Under the pieces are notes generated by a model, which saw nothing but the letters and a program-made list of their open reading frames with translations, had not been told where the DNA came from and did not search any database. A stretch of DNA of 42,939 nucleotides from a virus. Every line of letters begins with the position of its first letter. The first letter of the stretch is position 1. The stretch lies in IMG/VR virus record IMGVR_UViG_3300025120_000138, positions 1 to 42,939 of that record; one strand, written 5' to 3'. Positions 8,799-42,939 of the stretch are shown piece by piece. The position numbers were made by a program, and so were the translations under genes.

Positions 8799-8806
8799 TA
8801 TAAATA
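8799..8806 (+). promoter_or_regulatory. Late promoter (TATAAATA) heading the tail operon
   Basis: Exact TATAAATA within CTATAAATAC. A start near 8812 would precede an AGGAGA ribosome-binding site (8814-8819) and the ATG at 8825. It is divergent from the early promoter of gene 55, the sigma factor expected to read it. Confidence 0.8.
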
Positions 8807-18900: not shown

Positions 18901-19474
18901 TATCGACACTTATGTATTGTTAAACAGTTACAATACACAGTTTAGAACGTGGGCACAATATGATGGAAGAATTGAAACTAAACCTAATAGTCCAACTGTA
19001 AGTGAACTAGGCGAGTTGTTTAGTAATCTAAACGAAAAGAAAAGTATAAGCGATCAAGTTATATACAGACCTGTCAAGTACAAAATACTGTTTGGAGATT
19101 TAGCTAGTGGAGAACTTCAAGCTAGATTTAATGTAACAAAAACTGTAAACAGTACACTTAGTGATACAGAAATTAAACAAAGGGTTATCAATCTAATTAA
19201 TTCTTACTTTAGTATTGACAACTGGGACTTTGGTGAAGAGTTTTACTTTACTGAAATGGCGGCTTTTATTCATAATAATATGATAGGAGAGATAAGCCAG
19301 ATAACAATTAGTCCAGTTAGTACTTCAGAAGATAGTACTGCACTATTTGAGATAACTAGTGATAGTGATGAATTATTTTTACCTATATTAACAAGTTCGA
19401 ATATTGTTGTTACTAAAACAATAGCTGGAAACAGTACTACAATTTCACAAAATACTGGAGTTAGTATTCAATGA
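15947..19474 (+). CDS. 6: Baseplate wedge protein gp6-like
   Basis: A 1175-residue wedge protein, nearly twice T4 gp6 (660). The N-terminal 120 residues (YSTNYPEN-like, FIALLELLAFLGHNLAFRAD, YLSTAERRDSALRIAEFLGY, then TRNVVANGYL) are the typical gp6/gpJ-type baseplate core, and a second conserved part follows near 415-450 (RFFATQDRMVTAEDY). The C-terminal SYFSIDNWDFGEEFYFTEM also matches the family. A Gly/Thr-rich insertion (residues about 618-688, DNA 17798-18009) carries GSGYTSTPTVTITG and a second half-repeat (GTGYDQSTNISFASG); a related module occurs in the giant protein downstream. It overlaps the next gene by 4 nt (ATGA). Confidence 0.85.
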   Translation: MAQGARQSSLFAAEDFSVAYESFSEANFQAYDFETIRNAMVDYISTNYPENFNDYINSSEFIALLELLAFLGHNLAFRADLASRENYLSTAERRDSALRIAEFLGYKPTRNVVANGYLKIDSVKTDEAVFDTNGNSLANSTVQFEDLTDTNSYQNFLAIMNSIFQSSSQFGSPYSSFNTTGITNEIYRTNSTANTAERNFSNKVNGSSSSFSFYSPEFNNTTQTVVEKTPNPYAVVDLLYKNDSSGNSSPDTGFFIGFKQGQLEHKDFQITEGLPNLVLDINADNVANGNVWVQTIDEVGQIQKNWTQVDRLFGNGTLFNAKNNAIRDIFSVASRENDQISVVFADGNFGNIPRGIIRVWYRTGLNQTYSLTPDSFNSTSFTLRYIGANGNTFNAMFNASLKTNVTNASVRESVASIKANAPRFFATQDRMVTAEDYSIFPVTVSENIRKIKSINRVHSGHSRFRDIYDPTATYADAIQYTDDAYIYENNVTTRSVVNLPTNLSGANVFNKFIKPMLSNPEVSNFYYNRHGYSTITHNAQTDFTDTTNGIKYLGTSDADTFRWTQVTKGANACSGYFTLNSNVQRAGLTATNSLKKAELNGLVEFISSPYKEGYISIATVTNGGSGYTSTPTVTITGKGTGATATCTVANGSVTSVAIINSGTGYDQSTNISFASGGGSGASAVATIIDADIRWVKVDRIYKNGLGEDDSTGTPSGIDNTGKGAVVINGIIPTGARVKRIVPKIATDLTATTRQNVIDKINSRNSFALRYNAQSQQWIIIDSSNLPANTLALNDPANWNRKFEGDGSSTGLDNSWVLRFNYSATEWEMLARKTQFVIGSPQKLKFTNLNFNSSFSSETQKPLRDNIKILKINPKSKTNPDPMGREYKFNAFGTFTYADGYTDPHNIRVSLADPDNDGYPNDPEAFNKILANQTINLGKTSVDGYDYTIIDNTNGTTQVNGACDLHVQYNRIADINQVIDPSTTNIIDTYVLLNSYNTQFRTWAQYDGRIETKPNSPTVSELGELFSNLNEKKSISDQVIYRPVKYKILFGDLASGELQARFNVTKTVNSTLSDTEIKQRVINLINSYFSIDNWDFGEEFYFTEMAAFIHNNMIGEISQITISPVSTSEDSTALFEITSDSDELFLPILTSSNIVVTKTIAGNSTTISQNTGVSIQ
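17798..18009 (+). repeat. GSGY/TxPTV beta module inside gp6 (two half-repeats)
   Basis: The gp6-like protein here contains NGGSGYTSTPTVTITG, a GxGATATCTVANG strand pair, and a second copy starting NSGTGYDQS. The same module (AGSGYTTTPTVIVYDN and following strands) is encoded at 23992-24201 in the next gene. It looks like a portable surface domain. Confidence 0.6.
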
Positions 19475-28400: not shown

Positions 28401-30768
28401 TAGTATAGATATATATGAATGGACAAGATCTCCTGTATTACCAGAAAAATGGAGTGAACTAGTAGACCAAGAAATTATCATTGATGGAAGAGTAGCAAGT
28501 GGTGAAGCATTTTCTACTATAATTAACAGCGAAATAGTTTACAACTGGACAGAAGAATCTTATTACAATAACAGAACAAAAAGAAACGAAACAGTGTATT
28601 ACTACTGGGTCAAAAATAAAACTAACTTCAGTGGCGCTAGACAATACAATGTACTACAACTAAGTCAATTGTTAGCAGATCCCACTGGATATAATTTAAG
28701 TTGGTGTGCTACAGCAGGTACCGATACTTTATTATTATCAGGTATTAGCAATACAGTTACAGAAAATACAGTAGTACAGCTAGATGTTGATAGAAGATTT
28801 AACGCTTTACCAATGCAAGATTGGCTAATGTTAGCAGAAGATGATCCTCAAAGTGTTATCCCAGAATACTTGCATATTAAAATTAGAGATAGTTTAGCCG
28901 GCTTTAATCGATTTAGTGTTACTACAACATTTACTACATGGTCAAATAGTACCTCATACACAGCTGATACAGTAGTTAAAGAAGGTGACAATTATTACAT
29001 AAGTCGAGTTGATAGTAATTTAAATAATCAACCTAGTGCGGATAGTGATATGTCGCATTGGCAACGAGTGTACGACTTTTCATTCGATAACAATACACAA
29101 ATTGATGATATAACTATTCTCAGAAGTCAACCTGTGCCTAACTTAAAGTTACATAAATTTAATAGGTACGGACATCAGGTTAGACCTAGACAAAGTTTGT
29201 ATAGAGAGTTAGAAGAAGCTAGACAAAACTTTGTTTATACTGTAAACTTGTTGTTAAGTGAAGTTAATGTTGTCGACGAAATAAACAACTGGGAAAATGC
29301 GTTTGCAACTACATTTGTAGAAGGTGTTATAACTTATGATATAAATGATTATATTGCACTAGTAGATTGGAAGCTAACTGAAAAAGATGCAGACGGTAAT
29401 ACTACATATAAATTTCCAGAAAACACAGTACCTGATTTAGTATACAATACAAAGCAGGACTATGTTGATGCAGGCGAACCAGTAGACGGAAGTTATGTAT
29501 TAATTAAAAACACACACTCAGGTGATAATATTATTCGAAGTGAAATGTATCACTTTATCAATGGTGCTGATAAACTTGTGTTTAAAGAAAAAGCAACTAT
29601 AGAGCTTAGTGAAGAAGTTTGGTTACAAAGAAAGTTTGGACACGGATTTGATGTAGCAAACTTTGACGTTGTTCCCTTTGATAGTGGAAGTGAAAATGTT
29701 ATTAGCAAACTGTTTGACTTACTAAGAACAGAGATTTTTATTAATCATCACAAAGTAAAATATAATAAGCTATGGTTTAAAATGTTGTTTACTGCACTAC
29801 TACAAAATACAGCAGACGATTTTGCTTTTAAAACAACTTATACACGTTTAAATGTTAAGCGTCCTCTGTTACTAAACAAAAAGTTTTATCAACCAACTTC
29901 AATAGAACCAGTTGAAGAATTTTTTAATAGTGTAAAACCTTTCCATACAAAACTGTTAAGCAGTATGGATAGCAATACACACGGAGAGTCAACAAACATT
30001 GAAATTGACGAAGTAAGTAGAAACACATGTATAACTATCAAACATGGAGATCACACCTTAAGAACATGGGCAGGCGATACTGTATTAAGTGGCGGCGGAT
30101 TTTCTAGCAATGTTCCGACTGATGAAGATTATTCAATGTTTAACTTTCAGCCAGCAGACTTTGAATTTGATTATGATGGTAATATTTTTGACCAGCCAGA
30201 TAAAGAAGGTTGGGGAGAAGAATTAATGCCTGTGGACTACACAGAAAATATTAGTATACTAGTACAAACAAATGCTAGCGGAAGCACAGAGACAGCAGAT
30301 ACTAGAACATTTAGAATTAACATGTACGAACCGCAAGGATTACAAGAAAGTGTTGCTATCACTGATGCCTTCAAAACTACAACAACTGCTAACATAACAG
30401 CAACCGACACAACCATACCACTAGTAGATGCTGGTTTAATGGATCGAGTAGACAGAGGTGACGGAGATATAGGATTAGTACCTGGAGTGGTTTGGATAGG
30501 AACTGAAAGAATAGAATACAATGCAGTAAGTGGAGAAAATCTTGTGTTTTGCATTAGAGGAACAAGAGGAACTTCGTCTCAAGCACACACCAGCGGTGCA
30601 ACTGTAACTAATGCAGGACCAAGTCAGCGTATACCAACAGTACAAAAATTCTCACATTATGAGGACGGATTGCGTTTAGCGTACAATGACAGCGGAATAA
30701 GCCTCACAGCGGTAGGTACAAGCCCTGAACATGCGTTCATTAGAAATGCAGGGCAAGGATCGATATAA
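19471..30768 (+). CDS. Giant baseplate protein in the gp7 position
   Basis: A single open frame of 3765 residues, more than three times T4 gp7 (1032). It directly follows gene 6 with a 4-nt overlap, as gene 7 does in T4, and probably forms the outer wedge. The N-terminus (VTPLSTRPGESTEHTGSREV, then LNYDMFVNHQKYFWLVDVMPP-like) resembles large structural proteins of marine T4-like phages. Added modules are visible: a W/GD-type segment at about 457-512, a GSGYTTTPTV module (1508-1577), a W...Y..GD.V segment near 2130, a Thr/Ala/Asn-rich insertion (about 2165-2660) with three IN-type repeats, another W..Y...V segment near 3155, and a C-terminal Ig-like or fibre-like part (GVVWIGTERIEYNAV). No stop or frame break over 11.3 kb. 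The gp7 name is by position; a fused gp7/gp8-like or fibre protein is possible. Confidence 0.6.
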   Translation: MSERQAKPIVTPLSTRPGESTEHTGSREVTKLLPSILQTTVNKQFFDSTFEQLMSTGNLQPIKNIVGKQTANRDITDNYLLDNRSNDPYQFAQGFVNRNEDKTVSGTLAYDDLLRSLKYNEVETNNHNRVLSEPGYTLDLPINYDMFVNHQKYFWLVDVMPPCAIKGKPNFNINIDDAIGETTYTYTNLFDGKDLTLQDGMRIVFSPTDITRRIQTVVGNATFTAGMANGAIRVKVFLDNVLLAPSTYSYNNTTGVVTLNTAPALQQEVEIHTYYATSNSGTNNIDEIYIVDNVGQPGGIKFTKQFNAGISAGQYGKRQWVNVTVYNNQEPSGFDADDSSFDFRPYDLREHRLTTRDYLVEQRCSTDQSAWARSNLWIHEDAAQAMLTFSGLDSSVYLLDKYRGVRPIIEFKENIEKYNTGIRHLANIDHALESTEDPAQTIVGKTSYSVTVSGITTEWSNVKGATKKDKVRVTNGTAPNQVITYWECIQNHATPTNPQDSTNKDVWQQIVPVELENDDFIIFFESANVAYKNKIFRVGGVQSSITLTEIYNGDGSNGATALVSGDKIVILNGFNTLDISNIANTENGEKDDPFSGAEIYWNGTAWVYGQQKEHRSAGILHELYDVDLIKLDDATTYPISDYVGGYIFNFTHSTTNKFDDALGFKPEYVDYGNNPGLNFEVALLHTRFNYTEQSPDFQKNLTIEITGNYYYKNLNNNRYYNGWSTVRDGQPVSRVINKTVTDATVPLKFDVGHNNFDKDRYFRMFKENDLLAVQSNDVIDTSRVNRLNGKLPNLYLNTNTTYFIRTQFPQAELEFVDMDGTTLSSGITRTAGVRDDFDLVIASPTIKSFKYRLAASPNNFGVVYLHTSTQDTNIKVTKNGVDFTNYILNGNILEVNSGLRKDDHYQVSVFTTAKYSDTAEGNFEVVDAHKFNPQNLTFDKVSYGDLLLHLKSQMTQIPTFTGEWAGFNNYRNISHDHTFGGIIRQQPYSTELLNQLFTENDTDPISSLQYSSNSYKNFIRSFKTKIRQLNESVDITEPVYSLVDKTLEAINIGKNKTSAFARSQMAMYRDYEEANFSWVLNQTPTFDLPFTVNEYDDTFNHTQAWIKIPDSAGNHTWRALKYPEEYTFNNYQITITLSGITFPANGQNNLHFRWYKRDSVSFVPPSSVKLGLTRPFTPELRSNYSKDSTGTATDSVIVGHDGSIHVRNGTELFDRQVVGFDPVDAGLWDLELRISNNLGVELTSVVNSKQYWPNASRNTPYTWTDFQDSIKSEYNKWKTENNVTNFNSSTYYSGTDKFTWNYSSVIPNIGGWRGLYRYFFNTDKPHTDPWEMMGYNEKPTWWDTYYSWTDAAKRTALITALKYGNISDPGLASNLQVYDLDYSYPSYDWATNTLVTLLGVLNDPVTASVVQTPSLVERQKDFAYGDWGPVEEQWRRSSEFKFASALALLRTRPLIATNLYFKTDKRTTMSKLGYDNPQIRDLDKRKLTSWSNIELSDGKIIGAIIESVLIKNAGSGYTTTPTVIVYDNFGSGAEVKVSIKDGKLIAARITKQGQEYFNKPRLVLSGGNGILEAIIEKDTRRYFSGFSNSITSYALLSGTTTDVILQRFKNMTFNPIVKAGGFVNNNQNFILESSQDKGRVFVPEENFSTHLYVNKPDIEYFFGGITINKTANGYTINGYDNSLGYFNYNAPATNGPSAKVTFSGTLQVDVRRYTKFENTISELDYNTELRSIQEVYDFVQGYGHYLTSLGFTQSWKNAGSNFGNWATGNSTQTLYLIPNPNKVTVQDDRLGYFDNLNTRYDGVYNIVSNLGNQISSSDIAINRSSMTLDEETVFETKETTTNMFGLRLYKVQMEHIFIFDNVTNFDDVIASSEIGQIHERIIWRGNRTKNWNGKLFTPGHIVNGDSILPNFDSVAGQLDQYYARTNTLSNKQISDVARFNSGYNRPNWADTLDLDDDSVYEFVKGTYKYKGTRYALDAFMRNKGLFNGDATADLNELWAVRMADFGDTAKRKLTEFQITPELLVTDPQPVRFINGQKYDVLSDIVIDIDDTSPLNVYNPDSEQFTTREIKTYDDQNQNSMFAKDFINAGLPLLTETDYRTLNKEDFTLFPTETKIAYDFDGEWQDYDKWDSKTSYKLGDKVIHQGRVWEMLDPDGASGLTTANNPIELTGTVQLPIIPSAGQTLVVDGNTISLTKSAISTTLNVVTMDGSQDIRTNNVVAHDTTLILGQTSALASTITFTNAVITTAFNDIVKTGTTVNPIIQGSATATLVIEGTTVNFNETQTGTTNITAQQAYENTFNSSSWIQNGGTVSSTATTRIARIESLRSAYIAANSAAAWATWLGTYYTNNAGLNISHVITLVQLGGSTATAAQQFLDQDVILINNMLGTSFIGTQVASGAQVISPSQIATCQGQMNLGAFTADIATYLKANAPFVFAVTTVVAQQSSSGFKPYSLTDIVNRINAAGISNITAGVNASSQLTITKTTSTPSVAFNLTISVGTMNGTVGFNSAQETIQSQGTNTQTTPNLTQQQIVDQINNANVTGISASVLGNVLRLQCNLSQFFIGTGTANADIGLSSGVTPASTTTSTTNTSLTLPDILESINIATITGVTAVSANNKVKLISTNSTLVIGAGTANSTVGFTAQTYSATTGNVSNVFNAIVGSDGNQVFQQMTNDPNIFSIWVADNSEFGNYNLGHEIYQTMDFGMYTHNACGGIEDADEAQLDVTRQNGETQAHNLVVGDYILIRGSDTVPNIDGIHQVTRVDPNNVRRFYIDQYIETEGHAGNIYPLRKMRFSTLAALEADKQTKVNGVYKYNFAGARQDNALNPIYVFVDNDGNASNPSSQVYKWVGTWNDTNGNVGDWEIVRSGNKQARNDLVNNVKLYDAVKQTTITNLETYDPVKGIIFGFIKNEIDHILTNDVANYNYNSLDGEIENINAWQSRYVGKRWWDLSTAVYLDYEQGSIDYMQNNWGRLFDGASIDIYEWTRSPVLPEKWSELVDQEIIIDGRVASGEAFSTIINSEIVYNWTEESYYNNRTKRNETVYYYWVKNKTNFSGARQYNVLQLSQLLADPTGYNLSWCATAGTDTLLLSGISNTVTENTVVQLDVDRRFNALPMQDWLMLAEDDPQSVIPEYLHIKIRDSLAGFNRFSVTTTFTTWSNSTSYTADTVVKEGDNYYISRVDSNLNNQPSADSDMSHWQRVYDFSFDNNTQIDDITILRSQPVPNLKLHKFNRYGHQVRPRQSLYRELEEARQNFVYTVNLLLSEVNVVDEINNWENAFATTFVEGVITYDINDYIALVDWKLTEKDADGNTTYKFPENTVPDLVYNTKQDYVDAGEPVDGSYVLIKNTHSGDNIIRSEMYHFINGADKLVFKEKATIELSEEVWLQRKFGHGFDVANFDVVPFDSGSENVISKLFDLLRTEIFINHHKVKYNKLWFKMLFTALLQNTADDFAFKTTYTRLNVKRPLLLNKKFYQPTSIEPVEEFFNSVKPFHTKLLSSMDSNTHGESTNIEIDEVSRNTCITIKHGDHTLRTWAGDTVLSGGGFSSNVPTDEDYSMFNFQPADFEFDYDGNIFDQPDKEGWGEELMPVDYTENISILVQTNASGSTETADTRTFRINMYEPQGLQESVAITDAFKTTTTANITATDTTIPLVDAGLMDRVDRGDGDIGLVPGVVWIGTERIEYNAVSGENLVFCIRGTRGTSSQAHTSGATVTNAGPSQRIPTVQKFSHYEDGLRLAYNDSGISLTAVGTSPEHAFIRNAGQGSI
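23992..24201 (+). repeat. GSGY/TxPTV beta module inside the giant baseplate protein
   Basis: Encodes KNAGSGYTTTPTVIVYDN and further strands (GSGAEVKVSIKDGKL, then QGQEYFNKPRLVLSGG). It shares order and key residues with the module in gp6 at 17798-18009. Confidence 0.55.
26827..27393 (+). repeat. Three IN-type protein repeats in the giant baseplate protein
   Basis: Three related units start with a short helix and end in beta strands: LTDIVNRINAAGISNITAGV (26827-26992), LTQQQIVDQINNANVTGISA (27049 to about 27200) and LTLPDILESINIATITGVTA (27247-27393). The second and third share IGTGTAN/IGAGTAN, and all end in a ..vGf/IGL strand. The pattern recalls IN motifs of flagellar hook proteins and some tail proteins. 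The DNA copies have diverged, so this is an old duplication. Confidence 0.6.
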
Positions 30769-30771
30769 ATA
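30764..30771 (+). promoter_or_regulatory. Late promoter (TATAAATA) overlapping a stop codon
   Basis: Exact TATAAATA; the TAA stop of the giant gene (30766-30768) lies inside it. A start near 30777 precedes GGAAAG and the ATG at 30791. Confidence 0.7.
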
Positions 30772-32316: not shown

Positions 32317-33492
32317 ATGGCAAATTCACCAGGTGATATTGCAACCGCGGCACATTTTAATGCAGTAGGTTCAAAAATTAATAAAGTGTTTGGTGATATC
32401 TACGCTACAGCCGCAGTCACAGATGCAAATAGAATTGATACACACAAATATGGTTGGGGATCAGGCAACGTAGTTGTAGCAGTAGCTGATGATATTACAG
32501 CGACACAGTTACAAGGATTAGTAGCAAAGACAAATATTTCAACTAATCACACAGATCTTGTAGACAGTATAATAGTTTTTACAATACCAACAAATAGAAC
32601 TGATATTGGACTTGGTACTCTTATAAGAGCAGAAGACCTAAATAAAATTGATGATAAATTTGCTCCAATTTTACTTAACAACAAACATTTAACCATTGAT
32701 CCTACAAATGCAAGTGCAATACCTATTACACCTAGCGGAGGTTCATACAGTAGAACTACAGGTTGGCAAACTAAACTAGTAGGTGAACACAAATGGACAT
32801 GGGGAAGTTATAACAAAGCAAGATATTTCTTTAATGCAGGCGGACAAGTTAGAATTAGTTTAACTATGAGTGGCGGTAGCACAGCTGGATATTATAACTG
32901 GGCAGATGTTATCAATGAAATGGGCGTATTAAACTTTGACTGGGATACAGTTACACAAAGTACAGCAACTACACTTGGTACTAGTGAAGCTAAAGGTTTT
33001 TACGATTTAACAGACAAGTATGGAGATGGTAGCGACGGAGCCGCAACAAACGAAGGACTACTATTTCAAAGTAGTGGTGTTACGCTAGGTAGACAAATAG
33101 GCAGTTACGGTTATGGATACGGTTACGGATATGGCGGCGGACAAGCACATGGTTATATAACTGGAAAAGGTATATATCCAAATTTTGCTGAAAGAGCTAT
33201 TTTTGGCGGTACATATAGTAATACTATCTATGTTAGTAGTTACAGCATTTACAGTAGTTACCAGCAGTTAAAATTTAGAATGTATGGCAAATATGTAGAT
33301 AATGGTGCAAGTGTACAACTTAAAATTGTACTTGACGATACAGCTCATGCAAACATTATTGACGGTTCAATTACACCAGCATTAAGTATATTGATGCCTG
33401 ATACAATTACAAGCGGTGCTACTAGTTTAGATGTTACACCAAATCCAACATGCTCAGTTATTAACACATTTACAAGTGCAGACGATAGCTAA
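32317..33492 (+). CDS. Tail fibre/adhesin protein with Gly-Tyr-rich tip
   Basis: A 391-residue protein only 3 nt after the previous gene. The first 130 residues (ATAAHFNAVGSKINKVFGDI, then TIPTNRTDIGLGTLIRAEDLN) look like a baseplate-attachment part. Residues about 175-240 match a beta-sandwich seen in virion proteins (YFFNAGGQVRISLTMSGGS). A GSYGYGYGYGYGGGQAHGY run (about 263-281) is followed by another beta-rich region with many Ser/Tyr (YVSSYSIYSSYQQLKFRMYG). Gly/Tyr-rich loops act as receptor-contact segments in some T-even adhesins, so this may be the receptor-binding tip. The receptor cannot be inferred. Confidence 0.6.
   Translation: MANSPGDIATAAHFNAVGSKINKVFGDIYATAAVTDANRIDTHKYGWGSGNVVVAVADDITATQLQGLVAKTNISTNHTDLVDSIIVFTIPTNRTDIGLGTLIRAEDLNKIDDKFAPILLNNKHLTIDPTNASAIPITPSGGSYSRTTGWQTKLVGEHKWTWGSYNKARYFFNAGGQVRISLTMSGGSTAGYYNWADVINEMGVLNFDWDTVTQSTATTLGTSEAKGFYDLTDKYGDGSDGAATNEGLLFQSSGVTLGRQIGSYGYGYGYGYGGGQAHGYITGKGIYPNFAERAIFGGTYSNTIYVSSYSIYSSYQQLKFRMYGKYVDNGASVQLKIVLDDTAHANIIDGSITPALSILMPDTITSGATSLDVTPNPTCSVINTFTSADDS
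33100..33146 (+). repeat. Short GGNTAY tandem repeat encoding (GY)n
   Basis: Alternating Gly and Tyr codons (GGT/GGA and TAT/TAC) make a near-tandem 6-nt repeat within the adhesin gene. The codons vary at third positions, so the protein rather than the DNA sequence is kept. Confidence 0.6.
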
Positions 33493-33499
33493 AAAACAC

Positions 33500-33528
33500 T
33501 TGACAATCACAGCATAAATAAGTTATAG
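33500..33528 (+). promoter_or_regulatory. Candidate dual promoter for the glycosyltransferase/radical SAM operon
   Basis: TTGACA (33500-33505), 17-nt spacer, TTATAG (33523-33528) fits a sigma70 promoter. CATAAATA (33513-33520), one base from the late consensus, lies inside the same spacer. AAAGGAG follows at 33541-33547 before the ATG at 33555. The operon could thus be read early and late. Confidence 0.5.
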
Positions 33529-33554
33529 TAGTAGTTAACTAAAGGAGAAACTCT

Positions 33555-33902
33555 ATGGATGAGAGACTCGAGAAAGCTCTAGACTTTGCAAATTATCGCA
33601 TCACTCTAAGTAACCAAAAAAATACACTAAAGCAACGAGCTTTGGTATTACAAACTGTCCATTATAATAATGGAGTATTTCATGCTGATCCTACAACAAT
33701 TAGTTTTGTAAAAACTTTGATCGATAAAGGGAAAACATTTAGCATTATTTTAGATACTAAAGAAAATCCGATTGAGATAACTGATCTAGCTGATTTCTTA
33801 GAAGCATTACTGGGTGCTTATACCGAATCCACAAATGAATACAAAGTTCAATTGGAAAAGATTAAGAAAGCTAGAAATATCAAGACTTTGATGGACTGGT
33901 AA
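33555..33902 (+). CDS. Hypothetical protein, 115 aa, first gene of the modification operon
   Basis: Not recognised. A mostly helical soluble protein: an N-terminal helix (ERLEKALDFANYRITLSNQ), a hinge with LVLQTVHYNNGVFHADPT, a second part with GKTFSIILDTKENPIEITDL and a charged C-terminal helix ending in LMDW. No Cys, signal or membrane segment. It has the strongest ribosome-binding site of the operon (AAAGGAG) and its stop lies immediately before the next ATG. Possible roles include an assembly factor or regulator for the operon; nothing in the sequence decides this. Confidence 0.65.
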   Translation: MDERLEKALDFANYRITLSNQKNTLKQRALVLQTVHYNNGVFHADPTTISFVKTLIDKGKTFSIILDTKENPIEITDLADFLEALLGAYTESTNEYKVQLEKIKKARNIKTLMDW

Positions 33903-34820
33903 ATGGCAGAAAAACATGAACCTCAAGGCATTTGTATGTTCGCATACAATAACCAAGAATTAGATTATATTAAATTTGCTAGTCTAGCTTCACGTTATGC
34001 CAAACACTATATGAATGGAATAAAAGTAGCCCTCATTACAGATGAAGGTACTGAAAATTGGCTGAACGAAACTAAGTCACAGCAAGAGATACAATCGTTA
34101 TTTGATTATATTATAATCAACAATGTTCCGAATGAAATGAACATGCGTAAACACATGGACAGTCCATGGACAGAATTTAACGCACAATTTACTAATACAA
34201 ATAAGCATAAAGTTTTTGAACTAACTCCTTTTGAAAAAACATTGCTGGTAGATACAGACTTTTTAATTATGAACGACTTTTATGAGTATCTGTTTAAAAC
34301 AGATATTCCTGTTGGAATGCACAGGTACGCTGAATATATCGGTGGCGACCGTCCTTATATAAATGAGATAACATTAAACGAAGGAGGAATCGGTCATTGG
34401 TGGAGCACAATAGTATATTTTGATCAAAGCGAACAAAGTAAAATATTCTTTGATATGTGGGCTCACGTAAAAGAGCATTGGGAGTACTACAGTTTGTTGT
34501 ATCAGTTTCCTAAATCATTATTTAGAACAGACTTTTGTGTAAGTATTGCCGCACACCTAATGAATGGGTTTACAACTGAAGAATTTGTACATGACTACCT
34601 TAATACGCCATTGTTAAACATGGATCAAAAAGATGATATTATAGGAATAAACTCACATGACGATATTATATTCTTAAAACACGACAGGGTTGAACAATGG
34701 AAGAATATATTGGTTAGACATACACAGCAGAATCTACACATTATGAATAAGAGGGCATTAGACAGACATTATTTTGGTCTATTAGAAAATTTAGATAAAG
34801 CGGAGCCGGTAAATGAGTAG
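33903..34820 (+). CDS. GT-A-like glycosyltransferase (DxD type)
   Basis: A 305-residue protein built like GT8-type sugar transferases: an N-terminal strand with ICMFAYNNQEL, LASRYAKHYMNGIKVALITDE, then a TPFEKTLLVDTDFLIMND segment in which D117-T-D119 is the DxD that would bind Mn and the nucleotide sugar. Later come a WWSTIVYFDQ acceptor-region strand and a late NSHDDIIFLKHDR segment with possible metal-binding His. The sugar and acceptor are unknown. It overlaps the next glycosyltransferase gene by 8 nt and shares a similar layout with it. Confidence 0.7.
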   Translation: MAEKHEPQGICMFAYNNQELDYIKFASLASRYAKHYMNGIKVALITDEGTENWLNETKSQQEIQSLFDYIIINNVPNEMNMRKHMDSPWTEFNAQFTNTNKHKVFELTPFEKTLLVDTDFLIMNDFYEYLFKTDIPVGMHRYAEYIGGDRPYINEITLNEGGIGHWWSTIVYFDQSEQSKIFFDMWAHVKEHWEYYSLLYQFPKSLFRTDFCVSIAAHLMNGFTTEEFVHDYLNTPLLNMDQKDDIIGINSHDDIIFLKHDRVEQWKNILVRHTQQNLHIMNKRALDRHYFGLLENLDKAEPVNE

Positions 34821-35691
34821 AGGATTTATTACACTAGGCATCGACACTGATGAAGATAAAATTAAACACTGTTATACATTAGCTTGTAGTCTAAAAATAA
34901 TCGATCCTAATGCTGAAATTTGTTTAGTAGTTGACAAAGGTCGATTAGATATGATAAGTGATTATTACTCACATGTTTTCGACTATATAGTTGAATTACC
35001 ATACGGCAATAGTGCATACAAAGATGGCTTCCATGGCATGAATTTATGGCAACTTTATCATTGTACACCTTTTGATGAAACTATATATTTAGATTACGAT
35101 ACAATACTAATTAATATTGATTTAGATACTCTGTGGGAACTAATGGCAACCAATGACATAAGTTTTCCAGTAAATGCTAATAATTATAAGGGATTTTCTG
35201 CCGCCCGACATTTAAGATTCGAATATGAAATACAGTATAAACTTCCTAAATTGTATTACAATATAATATACTGGAAACAAAAATCTGCACTAGCCATTGA
35301 ATGGTTTAAAATGGCAGATCCAGTCTTGCAGAACTGGAGAGATGTATACAGCAAAGTGTTTACTGATAAAAAACCGCAAGACTTTGAAAAGAATGTTTTG
35401 TGTAATCTAGTAACACATTTCTTAGATTTAGAATTAGATACAAGAATTTTTTTAAATAATCATACAGATCTACATAGATTTTCGCATGGAATATTTAACG
35501 AAGATGTACCAGAACGATGGACTGAGTTTATGAATACTTGGGTAACCAATCATCAGAAGATACAAATAGAAAACTATATACTACCTAGTGGAATTATTCA
35601 CTACAGCGACGAAACATTTTTAACCGATGAAGTAATGCATGTCTACAGAACCAAGTTTATTACAGACTCTAAAAAAAGAAAAAGCACCTAA
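34813..35691 (+). CDS. GT-A-like glycosyltransferase (DxD type), second
   Basis: A 292-residue protein with the same architecture as its upstream neighbour: RGFITLGIDTDEDKIKHCYT at the N-terminus, AEICLVVDKGRLDMIS, then CTPFDETIYLDYDTILIN with D94-Y-D96 as the DxD motif, and an IHYSDETFLT segment near the end. The two may be old duplicates that now transfer different sugars. Its 3' end overlaps the next gene by 53 nt in another frame, which is the longest overlap in this operon. Confidence 0.65.
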   Translation: MSRGFITLGIDTDEDKIKHCYTLACSLKIIDPNAEICLVVDKGRLDMISDYYSHVFDYIVELPYGNSAYKDGFHGMNLWQLYHCTPFDETIYLDYDTILINIDLDTLWELMATNDISFPVNANNYKGFSAARHLRFEYEIQYKLPKLYYNIIYWKQKSALAIEWFKMADPVLQNWRDVYSKVFTDKKPQDFEKNVLCNLVTHFLDLELDTRIFLNNHTDLHRFSHGIFNEDVPERWTEFMNTWVTNHQKIQIENYILPSGIIHYSDETFLTDEVMHVYRTKFITDSKKRKST

Positions 35692-36646
35692 AAAGTGGTG
35701 CGTCTACTATGACGACGATACAGGCGAAGTTATAACAGTCACTAATCGTGTCATTGATGATATTAAGTCACCTCATTTTTTTACAGAAAATGATGATGCT
35801 CGAAAAATTCTTATGGGTATTAGCGACCCTAAAAAATTCTCTATACTTGAAACAGACGATGGATTTATATTAGGAGAAAAATCAGCAGTATTGCGTATCA
35901 AAGAAGCTGAACAGTCTCTTAGTATGATTCCTGTTAATGATAAAACCAAAGCAGATGTGAATATTATTATGTATGTCAACAGTTGGAAAATGGAAGTAAA
36001 TTTTGATCAAGACACACTTTATAAGATGACTGGTAAACGCTATTTTAAACAAGCAACAATTAATCCAGAGAAAGATGGAAAATACGACAACATTACATTA
36101 TACATTATTAAAGATAAAGATCCTAACTTCTTAATTAAAAAAATTGATATTGATCCGGGCGAACTTATTGAACAAGGGTACTTGCTATTTGATATGAGTG
36201 CATTTAGAAATGTTTGCGGACTTGGAGAAATGAGTATCTTAACAAAGAAAATCTTTAAGACTTATCGTGTTACAAAGAAAGCAACATTTGTTGGTGCTGA
36301 TTATACAAGCAGACGTAGCCTCAGAAGGAGGCATATTGTTCCACAGATAAGTAATGAGGAAGTGTTGTGTGATTTTACTATAATACCGCAAGAGCAATCG
36401 TTCAGTATGAGAAGCAATTTTAAGGACCCAACAACAGTTAAAATTTATCATGATGTAGGTTTATATGTGACAGATAAAAATGATCCTAACAGACTATTGG
36501 GAACATTGGTTTTACCTAAGTCAGCTGTCGGTTATAACTCTACTGTAGAAGTTGAATCTGACTTAGATCTTACTAACAGTGCATTTCTATTAAGAGAAGA
36601 AAACAGAACTATAACATTCGACATAACAGAGGAATCGCCAGTATGA
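35639..36646 (+). CDS. Hypothetical protein, 335 aa, in glycosyltransferase operon
   Basis: Not recognised. The N-terminal 70 residues (KKWCVYYDDDTGEVITVTNR, then SPHFFTENDDARKILMG) look like a small beta/alpha domain. The rest is largely beta-rich, with two probable sandwiches: about 105-200 (NIIMYVNSWKMEVNF ... YDNITLYIIKDKDP) and about 245-335 (SFSMRSNFKDPTTVKIYHDV ... STVEVESDLDL), separated by a basic SRRSLRRRH segment near residue 222. That layout would suit a structural or carbohydrate-binding protein. The only ATG that keeps the N-terminal domain is at 35639, inside the preceding gene. It overlaps the next gene by 4 nt. Confidence 0.6.
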   Translation: MSTEPSLLQTLKKEKAPKKWCVYYDDDTGEVITVTNRVIDDIKSPHFFTENDDARKILMGISDPKKFSILETDDGFILGEKSAVLRIKEAEQSLSMIPVNDKTKADVNIIMYVNSWKMEVNFDQDTLYKMTGKRYFKQATINPEKDGKYDNITLYIIKDKDPNFLIKKIDIDPGELIEQGYLLFDMSAFRNVCGLGEMSILTKKIFKTYRVTKKATFVGADYTSRRSLRRRHIVPQISNEEVLCDFTIIPQEQSFSMRSNFKDPTTVKIYHDVGLYVTDKNDPNRLLGTLVLPKSAVGYNSTVEVESDLDLTNSAFLLREENRTITFDITEESPV

Positions 36647-37620
36647 CAACAATACCAATAACAGAATTTGACATTGTATACATTAGCTATGATGAACCAA
36701 ACGCAGAACAAAACTATGCAAATCTATTAGAAAAATGCCCGTGGGCAAAACGTAGCCATGGAGTATGGGGCAGTGATGCGGCACACAAAGCGGCGGCGGC
36801 AATGAGTGATACAGATAGATTTGTAACTGTAGATGCTGACAACATTGTCAGAGAAGACTTTTTTAATGTTGAATTGAATATGGACAGGATTAAAGATACA
36901 GATGTAATTAGTTGGGCAGGTAAAAATGCTGTAAATGGATTAGTATATGGCAATGGTGGCATCAAGTGTTGGCCCGTAGACGTAGTAAACAAAATGCGTA
37001 CACACGAAGCCGCACCAGAAAGTGATAAAGCCGCACAGGTTGACTTTTGTTGGAATATACAATATGTGCAAATGAATAATATCTATTGTGATGTTGCTAA
37101 CAATGCTAGTCCTCTACAAGCATGGAGAGCAGGTTTCCGTGAAGGTGTAAAGATGGGACTAGAAGGCGGAGATGTCGTTGAGGCAAAAAATCTTAAAAAA
37201 ATCTTTGAAGAAAATTACAAAAGGCTATTAGTATGGATGAGTGTAGGCGAAGATGCAACAAACGGTTTATGGGCAATTTATGGTGCAAGACTAGGTTGTC
37301 ATATGACCAATGTTGAAAGACGCAAGTGGGACTGGCGTAATGTGAGAGATTTTGATTGGTTAACTAACTTTTTTAATACAGAATTATTTCCTGAGTTTGA
37401 AGACGGAACTGAAATGTGTGTGAACACTGGAGTAACATGGGATTGGGATAAACTTAAAAAGAAAACAGTAGAACTTGGTGCAGATCTTCGCGGTGAGCTA
37501 GATTTAGAAATTTCAGATATGGACAAAGTTGGTAGTAGATTCTTTAAGAAGGTTTATAAAAATCCACACAGACTTGGTGCAATGGTTAGAGAAAACCAAG
37601 TTGATGACAGTATCGAATAA
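36643..37620 (+). CDS. Glycosyltransferase-like protein (GT-A, DADN motif)
   Basis: A 325-residue protein starting ITEFDIVYISYDEPNAEQNY, a signature of a sugar-transferase-like family frequent in marine T4-like phages. HGVWGSDAAHKAA and TDRFVTVDADNIV follow, with D64-A-D66 as the DxD; then GNGGIKCWPVDVV, and QVDFCWNIQYVQMN. The C-terminal half has conserved Trp/Asp segments (RRKWDWRNVRDFDWL) and a GVTWDWDKLKKK stretch. It differs from the two glycosyltransferases upstream and probably has another donor or acceptor. The next gene starts inside its last 17 nt. Confidence 0.65.
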   Translation: MTTIPITEFDIVYISYDEPNAEQNYANLLEKCPWAKRSHGVWGSDAAHKAAAAMSDTDRFVTVDADNIVREDFFNVELNMDRIKDTDVISWAGKNAVNGLVYGNGGIKCWPVDVVNKMRTHEAAPESDKAAQVDFCWNIQYVQMNNIYCDVANNASPLQAWRAGFREGVKMGLEGGDVVEAKNLKKIFEENYKRLLVWMSVGEDATNGLWAIYGARLGCHMTNVERRKWDWRNVRDFDWLTNFFNTELFPEFEDGTEMCVNTGVTWDWDKLKKKTVELGADLRGELDLEISDMDKVGSRFFKKVYKNPHRLGAMVRENQVDDSIE

Positions 37621-38377
37621 ATCTACAGTACTGGTTACTGGCGGATTTGATCCTCTACACAGTGGACATATAGCATATTTCAAAGCCGCTAGAGCATTAG
37701 GCGACAAGCTAGTCGTTGGTGTAAACAGTGACGAATGGCTAATGCGTAAAAAAGGAAAAGCGTTCATGCCTTTTGCAGAACGTGCGTCAATTATCAGAGA
37801 ATTAGAAGTAGTAGATAAAATAATTGGATTTGATGATAGTGATGATACAGCGAATCAAGGAATATTTTTAGCACTATGTACCAACGCTGGTAAATTAATA
37901 TTTGCAAATGGTGGAGATAGAAGCAATACTACAACTCCAGAATACGAAGAGTACGGTAATCATCCAGATGTAGAATTTGCATTTGGAGTTGGCGGCAATG
38001 ATAAAAAGAATTCAAGCAGTTGGATATTAGATGAATGGCGGACACAAAAGACTGAACGTGAATGGGGTTACTGGCGTGTATTAGATGATAAGAAAACTAT
38101 AAAAGTAAAAGAATTAGTTATTAACCCAGGAGCTAGTTTAAGCGACCAGAAACATAAAATGAGAAGTGAACATTGGTATGTGTTAAAAGGTGATGTTACA
38201 ATTAACTTAGAATTTCCCAATGGAGACTGGCAAATACAAATGCTAACTGAACACACAAACTTTGTGATACAGAATAATTGGTGGCATAAAGTAACCAACG
38301 AAGGTGATAAATCTGCACATATATTAGAAGTACAATATGGTGAAAATTGTATTGAAGAGGACATCATAAGACGATGA
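37604..38377 (+). CDS. Fusion: HxGH cytidylyltransferase domain + mannose-6-P isomerase-type cupin
   Basis: Two enzyme-type domains in 257 residues. Residues 1-135 are a nucleotidyltransferase of the RfaE/glycerol-3-phosphate cytidylyltransferase type: VLVTGGFDPLHSGHIAYF with H19-S-G-H22, LVVGVNSDEWL, a KG-FMPFAERASII segment and FANGGDRSN. Residues about 150-257 match the cupin of type II phosphomannose isomerases: WGYWRVLDDKKTIKVKELVI, then Q182-K-H184 and RSEHW (187-191) as metal ligands, and HILEVQYGENCIEEDIIRR. The fusion suggests a sugar-phosphate activating step coupled to ketose/aldose isomerisation. The start at ATG 37604 is chosen because it directly precedes the first strand; the ATG at 37529 would add 25 residues read from the previous gene. 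Confidence 0.8.
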   Translation: MTVSNKSTVLVTGGFDPLHSGHIAYFKAARALGDKLVVGVNSDEWLMRKKGKAFMPFAERASIIRELEVVDKIIGFDDSDDTANQGIFLALCTNAGKLIFANGGDRSNTTTPEYEEYGNHPDVEFAFGVGGNDKKNSSSWILDEWRTQKTEREWGYWRVLDDKKTIKVKELVINPGASLSDQKHKMRSEHWYVLKGDVTINLEFPNGDWQIQMLTEHTNFVIQNNWWHKVTNEGDKSAHILEVQYGENCIEEDIIRR

Positions 38378-39834
38378 CAAACACAAACAATTACGAACTT
38401 GATCCAGATCCGGAAACAGCCGCACAACTAGTAAAGCCAAAACTTGCTGAAATAAGTGATAGTATGTGTATGGCTAAATGGTTGTGGACCAGTATTCATT
38501 TAACCAATGGAACAACTAATAGTTGCTACCTACCTCCTATACATAAAATTAATGCAGAAGATCTAAAAAATAATCCAAAAGCATTACACAATACACCAGA
38601 GAAAAAAGAACAACGAGCTATGATGCTCAAAGGAGAACAACCTAGCGGGTGTGACTACTGTTGGAATATTGAAAAGATGGATCGTAATTTTAATAGTGAT
38701 AGACACTATCGAAGTAGCGAACCTTGGGCACAAGCTGGTTGGAAAGATGTATTAGAAAAAGGTGCAGATGGCGATATAGAACCTACAAGCATGGAGATCA
38801 ATTTTAATCATGCTTGCAACTTAGCATGTAGTTATTGTAGTCCGCATCTAAGCAGTAAGTGGGCAGAAGATATTGAACAAAATGGACCTTATCCAACCAA
38901 AGTACCTCACAATAGCATTGACTACTTTAAACAAATAGGACAATATCCTATTAAAAATAGAGATCACAATCCTTATGTAGATGCATTTTGGGAATGGTGG
39001 CCGGAACTTTATCCAAAACTAAAAAACTTTAGAATGACAGGCGGAGAACCGCTCATGGATAAAAATACATTCAAAGTTTTAGATCATGTTATTGACAATG
39101 GCAGAGACGATTTAGAAATGGCTGTAACTACAAATTGTAGTGTACCTGATAAATTGTGGAATAACTTTGTTGATAAAGTAAGTTTCATAAGTGAGTATAA
39201 AAAACTAAAACGTTTTCGTATGTTTGTTAGTGTAGATGGATGGGGTAGACAAGCTGAATATATGCGTCATGGATTAGACTTTGATCGCATGTGGAACAAT
39301 GTAAATAATTATCTAACCAGAGTGGACGAAGGATTGGTAACGTTTATTGTAACGTTCAACATGCTTAGTTTACCTAGCATACAACGTTTAATGGAAGGTA
39401 TATTAGAATTACAGCGTATTCACAATGTAACAAAAAGTAGAAGAGATGATAGTGGTAAAATTGTAGTATATGGTCACAGTAAAGTATTTTTGGATACACC
39501 TATGTTAAGACATCCGGAGTGGCAAAGTTTACAGCTTACGCCTAAGAGTCATTGGTATCTTGCTGACGAGTGTTTAGCATTTATGAAAGAGAATCAAGAT
39601 AGACATAGGGCAAGTAGATGGATAGGATTCAAACCACATCAAATTGAAAGATTTGATCGTAGTATTGAATTTATGAAGCAAGGATTTGATAACGACCAGC
39701 AGAAACAAGATGCGGAAGAAAATTTTGTTAGATTCTTTGGAGCACATGACTACAGACGTAAAACAGATTTTAGTCATACATTTCCGGAGTTTGCACAGTT
39801 GTTCTTAGATTGGAAAGAAAAGCATAATGTTTAA
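38374..39834 (+). CDS. Radical SAM protein with N-terminal SPASM/twitch-like Cys cluster (1st of 4)
   Basis: A 486-residue radical SAM enzyme. The SAM/[4Fe-4S] motif C148-N-L-A-C152-S-Y-C155 lies in the middle, followed by the MTGGEPLMDK segment (about 220) that binds SAM. Ahead of it, residues about 29-110 hold CMAKW..., TNSCYLPP and GCDYCWNIE, an extra Cys cluster like the auxiliary-cluster motif of SPASM/twitch proteins, here on the N-terminal side. Related proteins use SAM radical chemistry on peptides or sugars. The substrate is unknown. It overlaps the fused nucleotidyltransferase-cupin gene by 4 nt and the next radical SAM gene by 8 nt. Confidence 0.8.
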   Translation: MTNTNNYELDPDPETAAQLVKPKLAEISDSMCMAKWLWTSIHLTNGTTNSCYLPPIHKINAEDLKNNPKALHNTPEKKEQRAMMLKGEQPSGCDYCWNIEKMDRNFNSDRHYRSSEPWAQAGWKDVLEKGADGDIEPTSMEINFNHACNLACSYCSPHLSSKWAEDIEQNGPYPTKVPHNSIDYFKQIGQYPIKNRDHNPYVDAFWEWWPELYPKLKNFRMTGGEPLMDKNTFKVLDHVIDNGRDDLEMAVTTNCSVPDKLWNNFVDKVSFISEYKKLKRFRMFVSVDGWGRQAEYMRHGLDFDRMWNNVNNYLTRVDEGLVTFIVTFNMLSLPSIQRLMEGILELQRIHNVTKSRRDDSGKIVVYGHSKVFLDTPMLRHPEWQSLQLTPKSHWYLADECLAFMKENQDRHRASRWIGFKPHQIERFDRSIEFMKQGFDNDQQKQDAEENFVRFFGAHDYRRKTDFSHTFPEFAQLFLDWKEKHNV

Positions 39835-41509
39835 AAATATTGATTACTATACTGAACGTGACGTAATGAAAAAAGTGTACGGCTGTGATACCATGTGTAC
39901 AGCAAAGTTTTTAAGTAGTACAATATATTTACAAACAGGTGAAACACACAGTTGTTATCATCCGTTACCTCATAAAATTCCATTAGCGGAAATTAAAAAG
40001 AATCCGAGTGCATTACACAATACACAGTTTAAAAAAGACAGAAGAGAACAAATGCTTAAAGGTAATAGACCTAGCGAATGTAACTACTGTTGGCGTGTTG
40101 AAGCAATGGGCGAAGAACACATAAGTGATAGGATTATAAAAAGTAAAAACGAAACACTGCTAACACCCGAAGCACACAAAATTATATTAGAAAATGGTTG
40201 GAAACATGATTACAATCCTACATACTTAGAAATAAGTTTTGGCAATGAGTGCAACATGCGGTGTGCATACTGTCATCCTAAGGCTAGCAGTGCTTGGATG
40301 AAAGAGATGCAACTAAACGGACCACTGGAAAATGCAGAACACTTACAAGTGGTAGAACAAGAAATTTACGAAGAAACAAGCAATCCTTATGTAGATGCAT
40401 TTTGGGAATGGTGGCCTAGTCTGAGAAAAGATCTCAAAGTAATTAGGGTAACTGGCGGTGAACCATTACTACAGCAAAACGTATGGAAATGGCTAGACAT
40501 GTTAGAACAGTCAGACGATTGTAAAGATATGATTTTTCAACTCAATACTAACCTAAATGTTAAAAACAAACTTGTACATAGGTTAATACAAAAAGTTGAT
40601 AAGTTACTCAAAGATAAAAAAATAAAAAAGTTTGCAGTATTTACTAGTGTTGAAAGTTGGGGCGATCAAGCCGCATATGCTAGGAATGGATTAGACTTAG
40701 AATTATTTGAAACAAACTTAGAAAGTATAATGAGAGGACTAGAACATCACGACGAGCATCTTTTTAGTGGTGTTAAGATAATGAATACATTCAATATACT
40801 AAGTGTTACAAGCTACGTCAAGTTCTTAGAAAAAATAAGATACTGGAGAGGTAAGTTACACAACAGAGCATATTGTCCTAAGATTACATTTGATATTCCA
40901 CACTGTACAGAACCAAATCAGTTTTCATTGATAGGGTTACCAGATGATTACGAAAGTTATTTTGAGTATATTACTGAATATTTTGCAGAATGGAGTTGGG
41001 CAAATAATCAAGACAAATATACAAAACATCACCATGATACAGTTTGGAGTAATTACTTTAGTAAAGAAGAAGTTAAAATGTGGGATAGGGTAATTAGCTA
41101 TTGGCACAGTATTGTAGAACAAAGAGGAAAAGTAAGACAAACTGATGAGAATCAATATCTACAGTGTAGACAAATTGATGATGCTAGAAGAAATTTTATA
41201 CTGTTTATCAAAGCAACAGATAAAAGAAGAGGTACTCACTTTAAACAAGTATTCCCTGAAATGAGCCAGTATTACGATTTGTGTGCTACATTAGAAGATA
41301 TTAAAAACATTGAATATAATAATGAATGTAAGCAATACCTAATGAAAGATACTATAGATGGAACCGCTGTAGAGTTTCATTGGGACGATGATTTTGTTTG
41401 GCAACACCCAAAGCTAGCAAAAAGTATTTTAAATTGGCGGCGTATTAGAAACTTACCTACAAAAATTTATGACAAAGATGAACTCAAGGATCAGATAGGC
41501 TATGTCTAA
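39827..41509 (+). CDS. Radical SAM protein with N-terminal SPASM/twitch-like Cys cluster (2nd of 4)
   Basis: A 560-residue paralogue of the previous protein. The motif is C142-N-M-R-C146-A-Y-C149, then VTGGEPLLQQ near residue 208. The N-terminal cluster is conserved (CDTMCTAKFL, HSCYHPLPHK, ECNYCWRVE). Both proteins share NPYVDAFWEWWP between the motifs, which is not part of the basic radical SAM fold and suggests a common partner or substrate. This one has an extra C-terminal part of about 70 residues ending in NWRRIRNLPTKIYDKDELK. Start by ATG 8 nt inside the preceding gene. Confidence 0.8.
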   Translation: MFKNIDYYTERDVMKKVYGCDTMCTAKFLSSTIYLQTGETHSCYHPLPHKIPLAEIKKNPSALHNTQFKKDRREQMLKGNRPSECNYCWRVEAMGEEHISDRIIKSKNETLLTPEAHKIILENGWKHDYNPTYLEISFGNECNMRCAYCHPKASSAWMKEMQLNGPLENAEHLQVVEQEIYEETSNPYVDAFWEWWPSLRKDLKVIRVTGGEPLLQQNVWKWLDMLEQSDDCKDMIFQLNTNLNVKNKLVHRLIQKVDKLLKDKKIKKFAVFTSVESWGDQAAYARNGLDLELFETNLESIMRGLEHHDEHLFSGVKIMNTFNILSVTSYVKFLEKIRYWRGKLHNRAYCPKITFDIPHCTEPNQFSLIGLPDDYESYFEYITEYFAEWSWANNQDKYTKHHHDTVWSNYFSKEEVKMWDRVISYWHSIVEQRGKVRQTDENQYLQCRQIDDARRNFILFIKATDKRRGTHFKQVFPEMSQYYDLCATLEDIKNIEYNNECKQYLMKDTIDGTAVEFHWDDDFVWQHPKLAKSILNWRRIRNLPTKIYDKDELKDQIGYV

Positions 41510-42788
41510 GCTGTTACATAGTAAAAACTTTTGTATGGCACCTTGGATAACAATGCATCTTTGGCCCAGTGGGGAAGCGTTTCCTTGTTGTGTTGTATTG
41601 CCAGATGAAGATAAACCTTTCAGTGGAAAGTTAGGAAATATCAGAGACAATAGTATATCTGATTTGTGGAATAGCAGTCTAATGAAAGAGTTGCGTGTTA
41701 ATATGCTTGCTGACAAGCCAAGTCAAACTTGTGAACGTTGCATACAACAAGAACAAGCAGGTAATCAATACACACTAAGACGAGAACTAAACCAAAACTT
41801 TGCAGATTACTTTCACAGGACAAAAGCTACTAATGCAGATGGAAGTCACGACGATCCAAAAATATACTATTGGGATGTTAGATTTAATAATCTTTGTAAT
41901 CTAAGATGTTTGAGTTGTAGTGTAAAATTTAGCAGTAGTTGGTATCAAGACAGTATCAAAAGACACGAGTATGATGGACCTGCACTACTACAATTACCCA
42001 AGAGTTTTTGGAAACAAGCACTCCCTTTAATAGGTGAAGTCAAACATGCTTATTTTGCAGGTGGCGAACCTCTAATGACCAAAGAGCATTATGAGATGTT
42101 AGACACATGGATTGAGTTAGGCAATACTGATTTAAAAATAAGTTATACAACCAATTTTACACAAACTAGATTAGGTAAACGTTATATATTTGATTACTGG
42201 AATAATTTCAGTAATGTACATGTGGGTGCTAGTTTAGATGATAATTGGCAACGTGCAGAATATTTGCGTAAAGATACAATATGGACTGATATTATAAAAA
42301 ATCGTAAAGAGATGATCAGAGAAAGTCCTAATACTAGATTCTTTTTAAGCAGTACTATTAGCATCTTTAATGCACTACATTGGCCTGATTTTCACAAAGA
42401 ATGGATAGAAGAAGGTCTAATAGATCCTATCGAGTTTAACCTCACATTGCTCACACATCCTGAGTATTTGAGTATGACTGTTATGCCAAAAGAATTTAAA
42501 AAACGTGTTGAGAAGCGTTGGATTGAACATCAAGAATATATTGAACGTGCATTTAAAATAGCACATCCGGACTGGCAGTATGATCCTTTAATAGTACAAA
42601 GTATGATTGACGGATTGCTTAAATATCTATGGAGCGAAGATAATTCTCAACTCATTGACAGGTTTCATGATGAACAACGTTGGATGGATAAGATCCGTAA
42701 TAACGATTGCTATGAAGTCTATACTGAGTTGGAAGGACTTAAAGAATACGGTGATCACTATGAGAAAGTGGTTAACAGAGGATGGTAA
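41502..42788 (+). CDS. Radical SAM protein with N-terminal SPASM/twitch-like Cys cluster (3rd of 4)
   Basis: A 428-residue member, more divergent. The N-terminal cluster reads NFCMAPWITMHLWPSGEAFP-CC, then TCERCIQQE near residue 76; the SAM motif is C132-N-L-R-C136-L-S-C139; AGGEPLMTKE follows near residue 188. The CMAPW...H..P.G..FPCC pattern is closer to typical SPASM proteins than in the first two. It overlaps its neighbours by 8 nt and 1 nt (TAATG). Confidence 0.8.
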   Translation: MSKLLHSKNFCMAPWITMHLWPSGEAFPCCVVLPDEDKPFSGKLGNIRDNSISDLWNSSLMKELRVNMLADKPSQTCERCIQQEQAGNQYTLRRELNQNFADYFHRTKATNADGSHDDPKIYYWDVRFNNLCNLRCLSCSVKFSSSWYQDSIKRHEYDGPALLQLPKSFWKQALPLIGEVKHAYFAGGEPLMTKEHYEMLDTWIELGNTDLKISYTTNFTQTRLGKRYIFDYWNNFSNVHVGASLDDNWQRAEYLRKDTIWTDIIKNRKEMIRESPNTRFFLSSTISIFNALHWPDFHKEWIEEGLIDPIEFNLTLLTHPEYLSMTVMPKEFKKRVEKRWIEHQEYIERAFKIAHPDWQYDPLIVQSMIDGLLKYLWSEDNSQLIDRFHDEQRWMDKIRNNDCYEVYTELEGLKEYGDHYEKVVNRGW

Positions 42789-42939
42789 TGGACGATAAAA
42801 AGTATAATCTAACTGAGAGCAAGTTCTTTTGTATGGCTCCGTGGATTCATATGCATGTATGGCCCAATGGTCGTGCATTTCCTTGTTGTCTAGCTGATCC
42901 TGCTAAAGGCGATTACGGAAATACAAATCAAAGTACACT
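42788..42939 (+). CDS. Radical SAM protein, N-terminal part only (4th of 4; cut by window end)
   Basis: Starts at the ATG overlapping the previous stop (TAATG) and runs off the right edge after 50 codons. FFCMAPWIHMHVWPNGRAFP-CC repeats the N-terminal Cys cluster of the third gene almost exactly, so it is very probably a fourth paralogue. The catalytic part lies outside the window. Confidence 0.7.
   Translation, partial: MDDKKYNLTESKFFCMAPWIHMHVWPNGRAFPCCLADPAKGDYGNTNQST

Follow-up and report, generated by a model that had tools for sequence, protein, structure and literature searches.

The window, by which we mean the whole 42,939-nucleotide stretch of DNA analysed here, comes from IMG/VR and represents a 42.9-kb piece of the genome of a large T4-like phage; its gp55-like sigma factor and gp46-like nuclease have their nearest relatives in jumbo phages, PA5oct and Phosso among them. 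At positions 38374-42939 it carries four consecutive radical SAM genes on the plus strand, three of them complete and the fourth represented by its start, as the original prediction had proposed: gene 1 at 38374..39834 (486 aa), gene 2 at 39827..41509 (560 aa), gene 3 at 41502..42788 (428 aa) and gene 4 at 42788..42939, where the window ends after 50 codons. The predicted overlaps are present as well, with 8, 8 and 1 bases shared between genes 1 and 2, 2 and 3, and 3 and 4, respectively. All three complete proteins belong to NCBIfam family NF033640 (N_Twi_rSAM, twitch domain-containing radical SAM protein; curated cut-off 170 bits), which they match across the full model at 333, 268 and 339 bits, and they fall into paralogue groups 0, 5 and 1 of the analysis described below. 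The 50-residue fragment of gene 4 aligns to model positions 1-38 with 39 bits, under the cut-off, and its complete homologue in loci L005 and L006 has 419 aa.

Each complete gene has a CX3CX2C motif, placed at residue 148 in gene 1, 142 in gene 2 and 132 in gene 3, followed by GGEP at residues 223, 210 and 187, and these superfamily motifs (CX3CX2C and GGE) are conserved in each paralogue class. Ahead of them, all four genes carry the front cysteine cluster that had been noted as CMAPW...PCC or similar; that exact spelling is confined to genes 3 and 4, and the cluster reads CMAKW...SCY in gene 1 and CTAKF...SCY in gene 2. The string NPYVDAFWEWWP, picked out beforehand as common to the first two genes, occurs letter for letter in these two and in no other gene of the row, and among relatives it tags the sister clades to which these two genes belong (63/67 and 12/13 proteins). 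Since three genes score above the NF033640 cut-off, the fourth matches the start of the model and seven cysteines are conserved, the row is not a product of chance.

Domain order, fold and paralogue classes

The placement of the auxiliary cysteines in front of the SAM core had been read as the reverse of the usual SPASM/twitch order. The layout itself is correct: in gene 3, Pfam SPASM covers residues 11-80, ahead of Radical_SAM at 128-228, and in gene 1 the cysteines 32/51/93/96 lie N-terminal to the cluster cysteines 148/152/155. The arrangement is not new, because the complete proteins match NF033640, a recognised family with the same architecture of an N-terminal twitch domain followed by the SAM core. 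The family name gives no reaction, and our literature search found no paper that uses it.

A profile of gene 3's clade searched against the PDB found BtrN (2-deoxy-scyllo-inosamine dehydrogenase; PDB 4m7t, 4m7s) with an E-value of 1.4e-4. BtrN is a twitch radical SAM enzyme that oxidises an amino-cyclitol, and its twitch domain, which lies C-terminal to the SAM core, aligns with the N-terminal domain of the N_Twi proteins; with the domain order reversed, the latter lack the C-terminal twitch domain expected of the BtrN family. In the AlphaFold2 model of gene 1 (P0002; pLDDT 87.8), the front domain is predicted to form strands at 38-42 and 47-49 and a helix at 91-100, so that four conserved cysteines (93-100% by class) accompany a beta-hairpin and a helix, as expected of an auxiliary-cluster domain. 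Foldseek placed this model near radical SAM enzymes, some of the sugar type and some of the peptide type, namely BlsE, SuiB, MoaA, DesII, AprD4 and EpeE, all with low TM-scores, 10-18% identity and another domain order, the difference in order being a reason to expect the low scores.

The array is longer than the window reveals, as contigs with identical or near-identical proteins carry an unbroken run of five N_Twi genes, which two other genes separate from a sixth. One of these contigs (67.8 kb) holds 16 N_Twi genes in total, about ten of them outside the row, with a second array farther along that adjoins another homologue of f0, the putative glycosyltransferase described below; among other large aquatic phage contigs the highest count is 19 on one contig. 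Anchoring on gene 1 gave 80 loci with 282 distinct proteins, which resolve into clades with FastTree local support of 0.80-1.0 at a hand-chosen clade cut-off. For five of these clades the order is 0-2-1-3-4, kept by 27 of the 28 non-redundant loci in which four or more of the five are present, and the window's clade has the order 0-5-1-1-6-7. Median identity is 21% between paralogues within a locus and 50% between orthologues of different loci, and by this measure of sequence divergence the paralogue classes are old. The seven cluster cysteines are conserved at 98-100% over the 282 proteins and at 93-100% within each class, and GGE, N254, S286 and R298 are kept in all paralogue clades, so that no class looks catalytically dead. 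The suggestion that the tandem genes perform successive steps on one substrate, or serve one substrate each, thus gains support from the age of the paralogues, the retention of their catalytic cysteines and their conserved order.

The glycosyltransferase module and its promoter

Ahead of the array lies a fixed core, all on the plus strand, composed of f1, f3, two f2 genes, a variable gene and f0. The last gene before the module proper is f1 (32317..33492), a tail-fibre-like protein defined by our own clustering and by synteny in 77 loci, which has no Pfam match and contains a GY-repeat at 33100-33141. The module opens with f3 (33555..33902), a small conserved protein found in 75 loci, and continues with two GT8/glycogenin-like glycosyltransferases of one family, f2a (33903..34820) and f2b (34813..35691). 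The profile of this family (A4) matches glycogenin-1 over about 110 residues (E 7e-9), which identifies a glycogenin-like GT-A domain; f2a alone has no match in Pfam or NCBIfam, and the window proteins alone do not reach the Pfam GT8 model. Next comes f14 (35639..36646), recognised by its constant position and a weak match to phrog_7768, whose place is taken by f7 or f13 in other clades. The core ends with f0 (36643..37620; 79 loci), a GT-A-like putative glycosyltransferase with a DXD-type motif in which D64 and D66 are invariant. Its AlphaFold2 model (pLDDT 84.7) has as best Foldseek matches the GT2 enzymes SunS, TarP, RmlT and TarS, with probabilities of 0.90-0.98 and TM-scores of only 0.2-0.3, and f0 probably adopts a GT-A fold. 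Between f0 and gene 1 sits f17 (37529..38377, plus strand), a fusion of a cytidylyltransferase-like domain (PF01467, 52.5 bits) and a mannose-6-phosphate-isomerase-type cupin (PF01050, 69.8 bits).

Between f1 and the module, at 33500..33529 on the plus strand, lies a sigma-70-type promoter-like site, TTGACA-18-TATAGT, that matches the consensus at 11/12 positions. Of 84 non-redundant relatives, 32 have a site with at least 11/12 matches at the f1-f3 junction, against 0.2 expected from shuffling, and such sites occur at 17 of 1595 other junctions. Core and radical SAM genes abut or overlap as one gene run behind this recurrent promoter, and the median gap between array genes is -8, which leaves little room for a RiPP precursor gene between them (ORFs of at least 60 aa were surveyed). 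Ahead of the tail-fibre genes, at 30764..30771 on the plus strand, is a T4-late-promoter-like TATAAATA, of which the window has only three; the further copies, at 1776 (minus strand) and 8799 (plus strand), are also directly upstream of genes, and because the copies are fewer than chance predicts, position is the sole argument for this element. As the promoter before the module is distinct from the late type, the arrangement suggests that host polymerase can transcribe the module early and independently of the tail genes. We reject a single late operon with the tail genes as the sole model, since so many relatives have the sigma-70-type promoter between f1 and f3.

The pairing with glycosyltransferases, which had been proposed as a check, was borne out: glycan genes, be it the transferase core or others, accompany the N_Twi genes in nearly all loci anchored on gene 1 and in 80/80 anchored on group 1 (the clade of gene 3), samples that consist of best-scoring matches rather than random draws and include related contigs. 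Each of the best 80 group-1-anchored loci holds three or more N_Twi genes. Loci collected independently through f0 retain the core, and N_Twi genes occur in 41/80 of them, or 35/61 of those with at least 5 kb downstream; loci without them often have repeated f0 genes instead. Because about half of the f0-anchored loci are without radical SAM genes, the array appears to be an optional tailoring unit at a fixed place. Single homologues outside this context in other phages had been named as evidence that would count against the idea. Such evidence was found in part: single copies do exist, those of phages within the same module and those of bacteria in unrelated neighbourhoods.

Accessory genes around the module encode a carbamoyltransferase, UDP-glucose dehydrogenase, NDP-sugar epimerases, a DegT aminotransferase, acetyltransferases and a hexapeptide acyltransferase, and on a matching contig the stretch between two arrays includes SIS, ribulose-phosphate epimerase, cupin, two epimerase, C-methyltransferase, UGD-like and carbamoyltransferase genes. 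Another family, f8, is called SGNH-like solely from its own start motif and the GDSL neighbours of bacterial relatives; f5 obtained no function from Pfam, PHROGs and PDB searches, nor did f9 from Pfam and PHROGs. An IscU or A-type Fe-S carrier is encoded on 7 of 14 large contigs, and as a search of the same number of contigs found no Fer2 ferredoxin, the host presumably supplies the electron donor. Among named phages f0, f1 and f2 have no match, and N_Twi relatives occur only in Vibrio phages K566 and K567, where they are interleaved with two GT8 genes and the rest of the core is not shared. Some bacterial relatives are fused to TPR domains, and others are singletons away from glycan genes, so that the substrates of the family may be mixed; the bacterial neighbourhoods are too mixed to fix a substrate.

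Candidate substrates of the array

We consider it probable that the row supplies the tailoring steps of a glycan pathway encoded by the phage, each class editing its own sugar or position, and that the host surface is where the glycan most likely belongs; on this reading, the N_Twi enzymes most likely tailor an unusual sugar coat. The domain order, the BtrN match, the conserved cysteines, the fixed gene order and the glycan genes in the samples anchored on gene 1, f0 and group 1 all support it, as do the sugar genes between the two arrays of the matching contig, the GT8 genes interleaved with N_Twi genes in K566 and K567, the promoter distinct from the late one and the Fe-S carriers. Against it we count that peptide-modifying enzymes have a twitch fold too, that SuiB and EpeE turn up as fold neighbours of the gene 1 protein, that f5, f9, f14 and f23 carry no functional assignment, that the TM-scores behind the GT fold of f0 are weak, and, as noted above, that many f0 loci do without the array and that bacterial relatives are mixed. 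The substrate, chemistry and glycan carrier we infer as follows. SAM would be cleaved at the CX3CX2C cluster to give a 5'-deoxyadenosyl radical, which would take a hydrogen from a sugar carbon, while the putative front twitch cluster would take up or pass on an electron, as in BtrN. The products would be oxidised, epimerised or deoxygenated sugars, with each radical SAM class acting on a different sugar or a different position, and the glycan would be displayed on the surface of the infected cell, where it could block superinfection or re-adsorption, or, less likely, on the phage's own tail fibres. A bolder form, which we offer tentatively and think more likely wrong than right, is an assembly line of five or more non-redundant front-cluster radical SAM enzymes making ordered edits on one phage-made glycan, a sugar structure unknown in bacteria that would serve many aquatic jumbo phages as a variable cloak on the host cell or the virion.

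The position of the module, always directly after tail-fibre genes, invites the reading that virion protein is modified, with the tail-fibre f1 or its glycan as target and the enzymes acting on peptide or together with protein glycosyltransferases. The resemblance of f2 to glycogenin, a protein glycosyltransferase, the peptide S-glycosyltransferases SunS and ThuS among the best fold matches of f0, the peptide-acting SuiB and EpeE among the structural neighbours of gene 1, and the TPR domains of some bacterial relatives point the same way, whereas the module is divided from f1 by its own sigma-70-type promoter, f1 is divergent with a GY repeat restricted to one clade, and many accessory genes make or decorate sugars. 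It is the separate promoter that leads us to prefer the host surface; virion modification, which the tail-fibre neighbourhood and the SunS-like matches of f0 keep alive, seems to us rather improbable. The GY-rich repeat in particular can be dismissed as a general radical SAM substrate because only the window's clade has it.

DNA hypermodification is another known role of glycosyltransferases in phages and of certain radical SAM enzymes, so that the transferases and radical SAM enzymes could instead decorate modified bases of the phage DNA. Such glycosylation of DNA has been described (PMC12619734), and a thymidylate-synthase-family gene is present on 5 of 12 contigs; that gene is nonetheless absent from the other 7/12, which may be incomplete, and the module sits in the tail-fibre region and not near replication genes. 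A TET/JBP search of 12 contigs returned no match, a weak point given that the search was positive nowhere, and taken together DNA modification is unlikely, to a degree that we would put little weight on it. The SAM cores also have weak matches to prokaryotic viperin (pVip), which would suggest anti-viral or host-takeover small-molecule chemistry, but their scores of 24.0, 25.9 and 23.4 bits fall far below the NF038283 cut-off of 180, and neither a twitch domain nor an array context is a viperin feature; we regard this idea as extremely improbable.

Published systems and implications

Phages rich in radical SAM genes have been reported before. The T4-like marine phage TARA_ERS488813_N000010 carries 12 of them, and such phages encode Fe-S assembly genes (PMC5332604); there, the radical SAM genes were treated as part of Fe-S metabolism, and the main text does not mention glycosyltransferases. 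In the portions of the two sources available, the host-recognition region of pelagimyophages combines glycosyltransferases with radical SAM cassettes (PMC7029224), and jumbo phages carry capsular polysaccharide modification clusters with paralogous glycosyltransferases and nucleotidyltransferases (PMC7824862), a paper from which the word 'radical' is absent. In contrast to the locus studied here, neither an ordered paralogue array nor a promoter is found in those portions. No paper that we found, in a search that reached only a minority of subscription papers, describes the ordered array, its glycosyltransferase partner or the promoter, and no published work that we found tests a sugar-coat role for N_Twi enzymes. 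The N_Twi family is thus already known, and the ordered array and its context appear undescribed in the literature searched.

The conserved order, the conserved active sites and the constant glycosyltransferase partner make the substrate of the N_Twi enzymes testable, and experiments could start from Vibrio phage K566, an isolate that carries the array in small form. If the substrate is indeed a glycan, these phages would run a radical chemistry on sugars that is known elsewhere from the biosynthesis of antibiotics, and they would possess a changeable surface coat for use in phage-host or phage-phage conflict.

Late-promoter-like sites and the tail-fibre region

The sequence TATAAATA occurs only three times in the whole window, at 1776-1783 on the minus strand and at 8799-8806 and 30764-30771 on the plus strand, each time just 5' of a gene or gene block, a placement that would fit late promoters of the T4 type. 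The tail-fibre genes are preceded by a very large open reading frame of 3765 aa (19471-30768), and the tail-fibre-like protein carries a GY-repeat (GSYGYGYGYGYGGG; 33100-33141) that, among the loci examined, is limited to the window's clade.

Variation in array-bearing phages and related loci

One matching contig carries a second array of N_Twi genes, the radical SAM family with an N-terminal twitch domain, within G001:1-30500 (L244, L245), together with a wide set of sugar-nucleotide genes and a gene for a 733-aa aminotransferase-like protein. Two N_Twi units are joined head to tail in a single 818-aa protein at locus L079 (gene 18802-21255) and likewise in G017:63352-65715. Genes for IscU and an A-type Fe-S carrier adjoin in array-bearing phages (G010:153404-154073, G011:65137-65806 and G012:189670-190342). 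Many loci among L185-L201 and L207-L226 have the core without N_Twi genes, and in these two or three tandem copies of f0, the putative GT-A-like glycosyltransferase, take their place.

Bacterial contexts

The complete tail-fibre, glycosyltransferase and array module is also found on a phage-like contig (L130) binned in a Rhodobacteraceae MAG, which may hint at a host or else reflect a binning error. Elusimicrobia MAG contigs (L088 and L090) encode tandem rows of N_Twi proteins, each fused to a long TPR array and up to 1040 aa in length, in what looks like an independent expansion.
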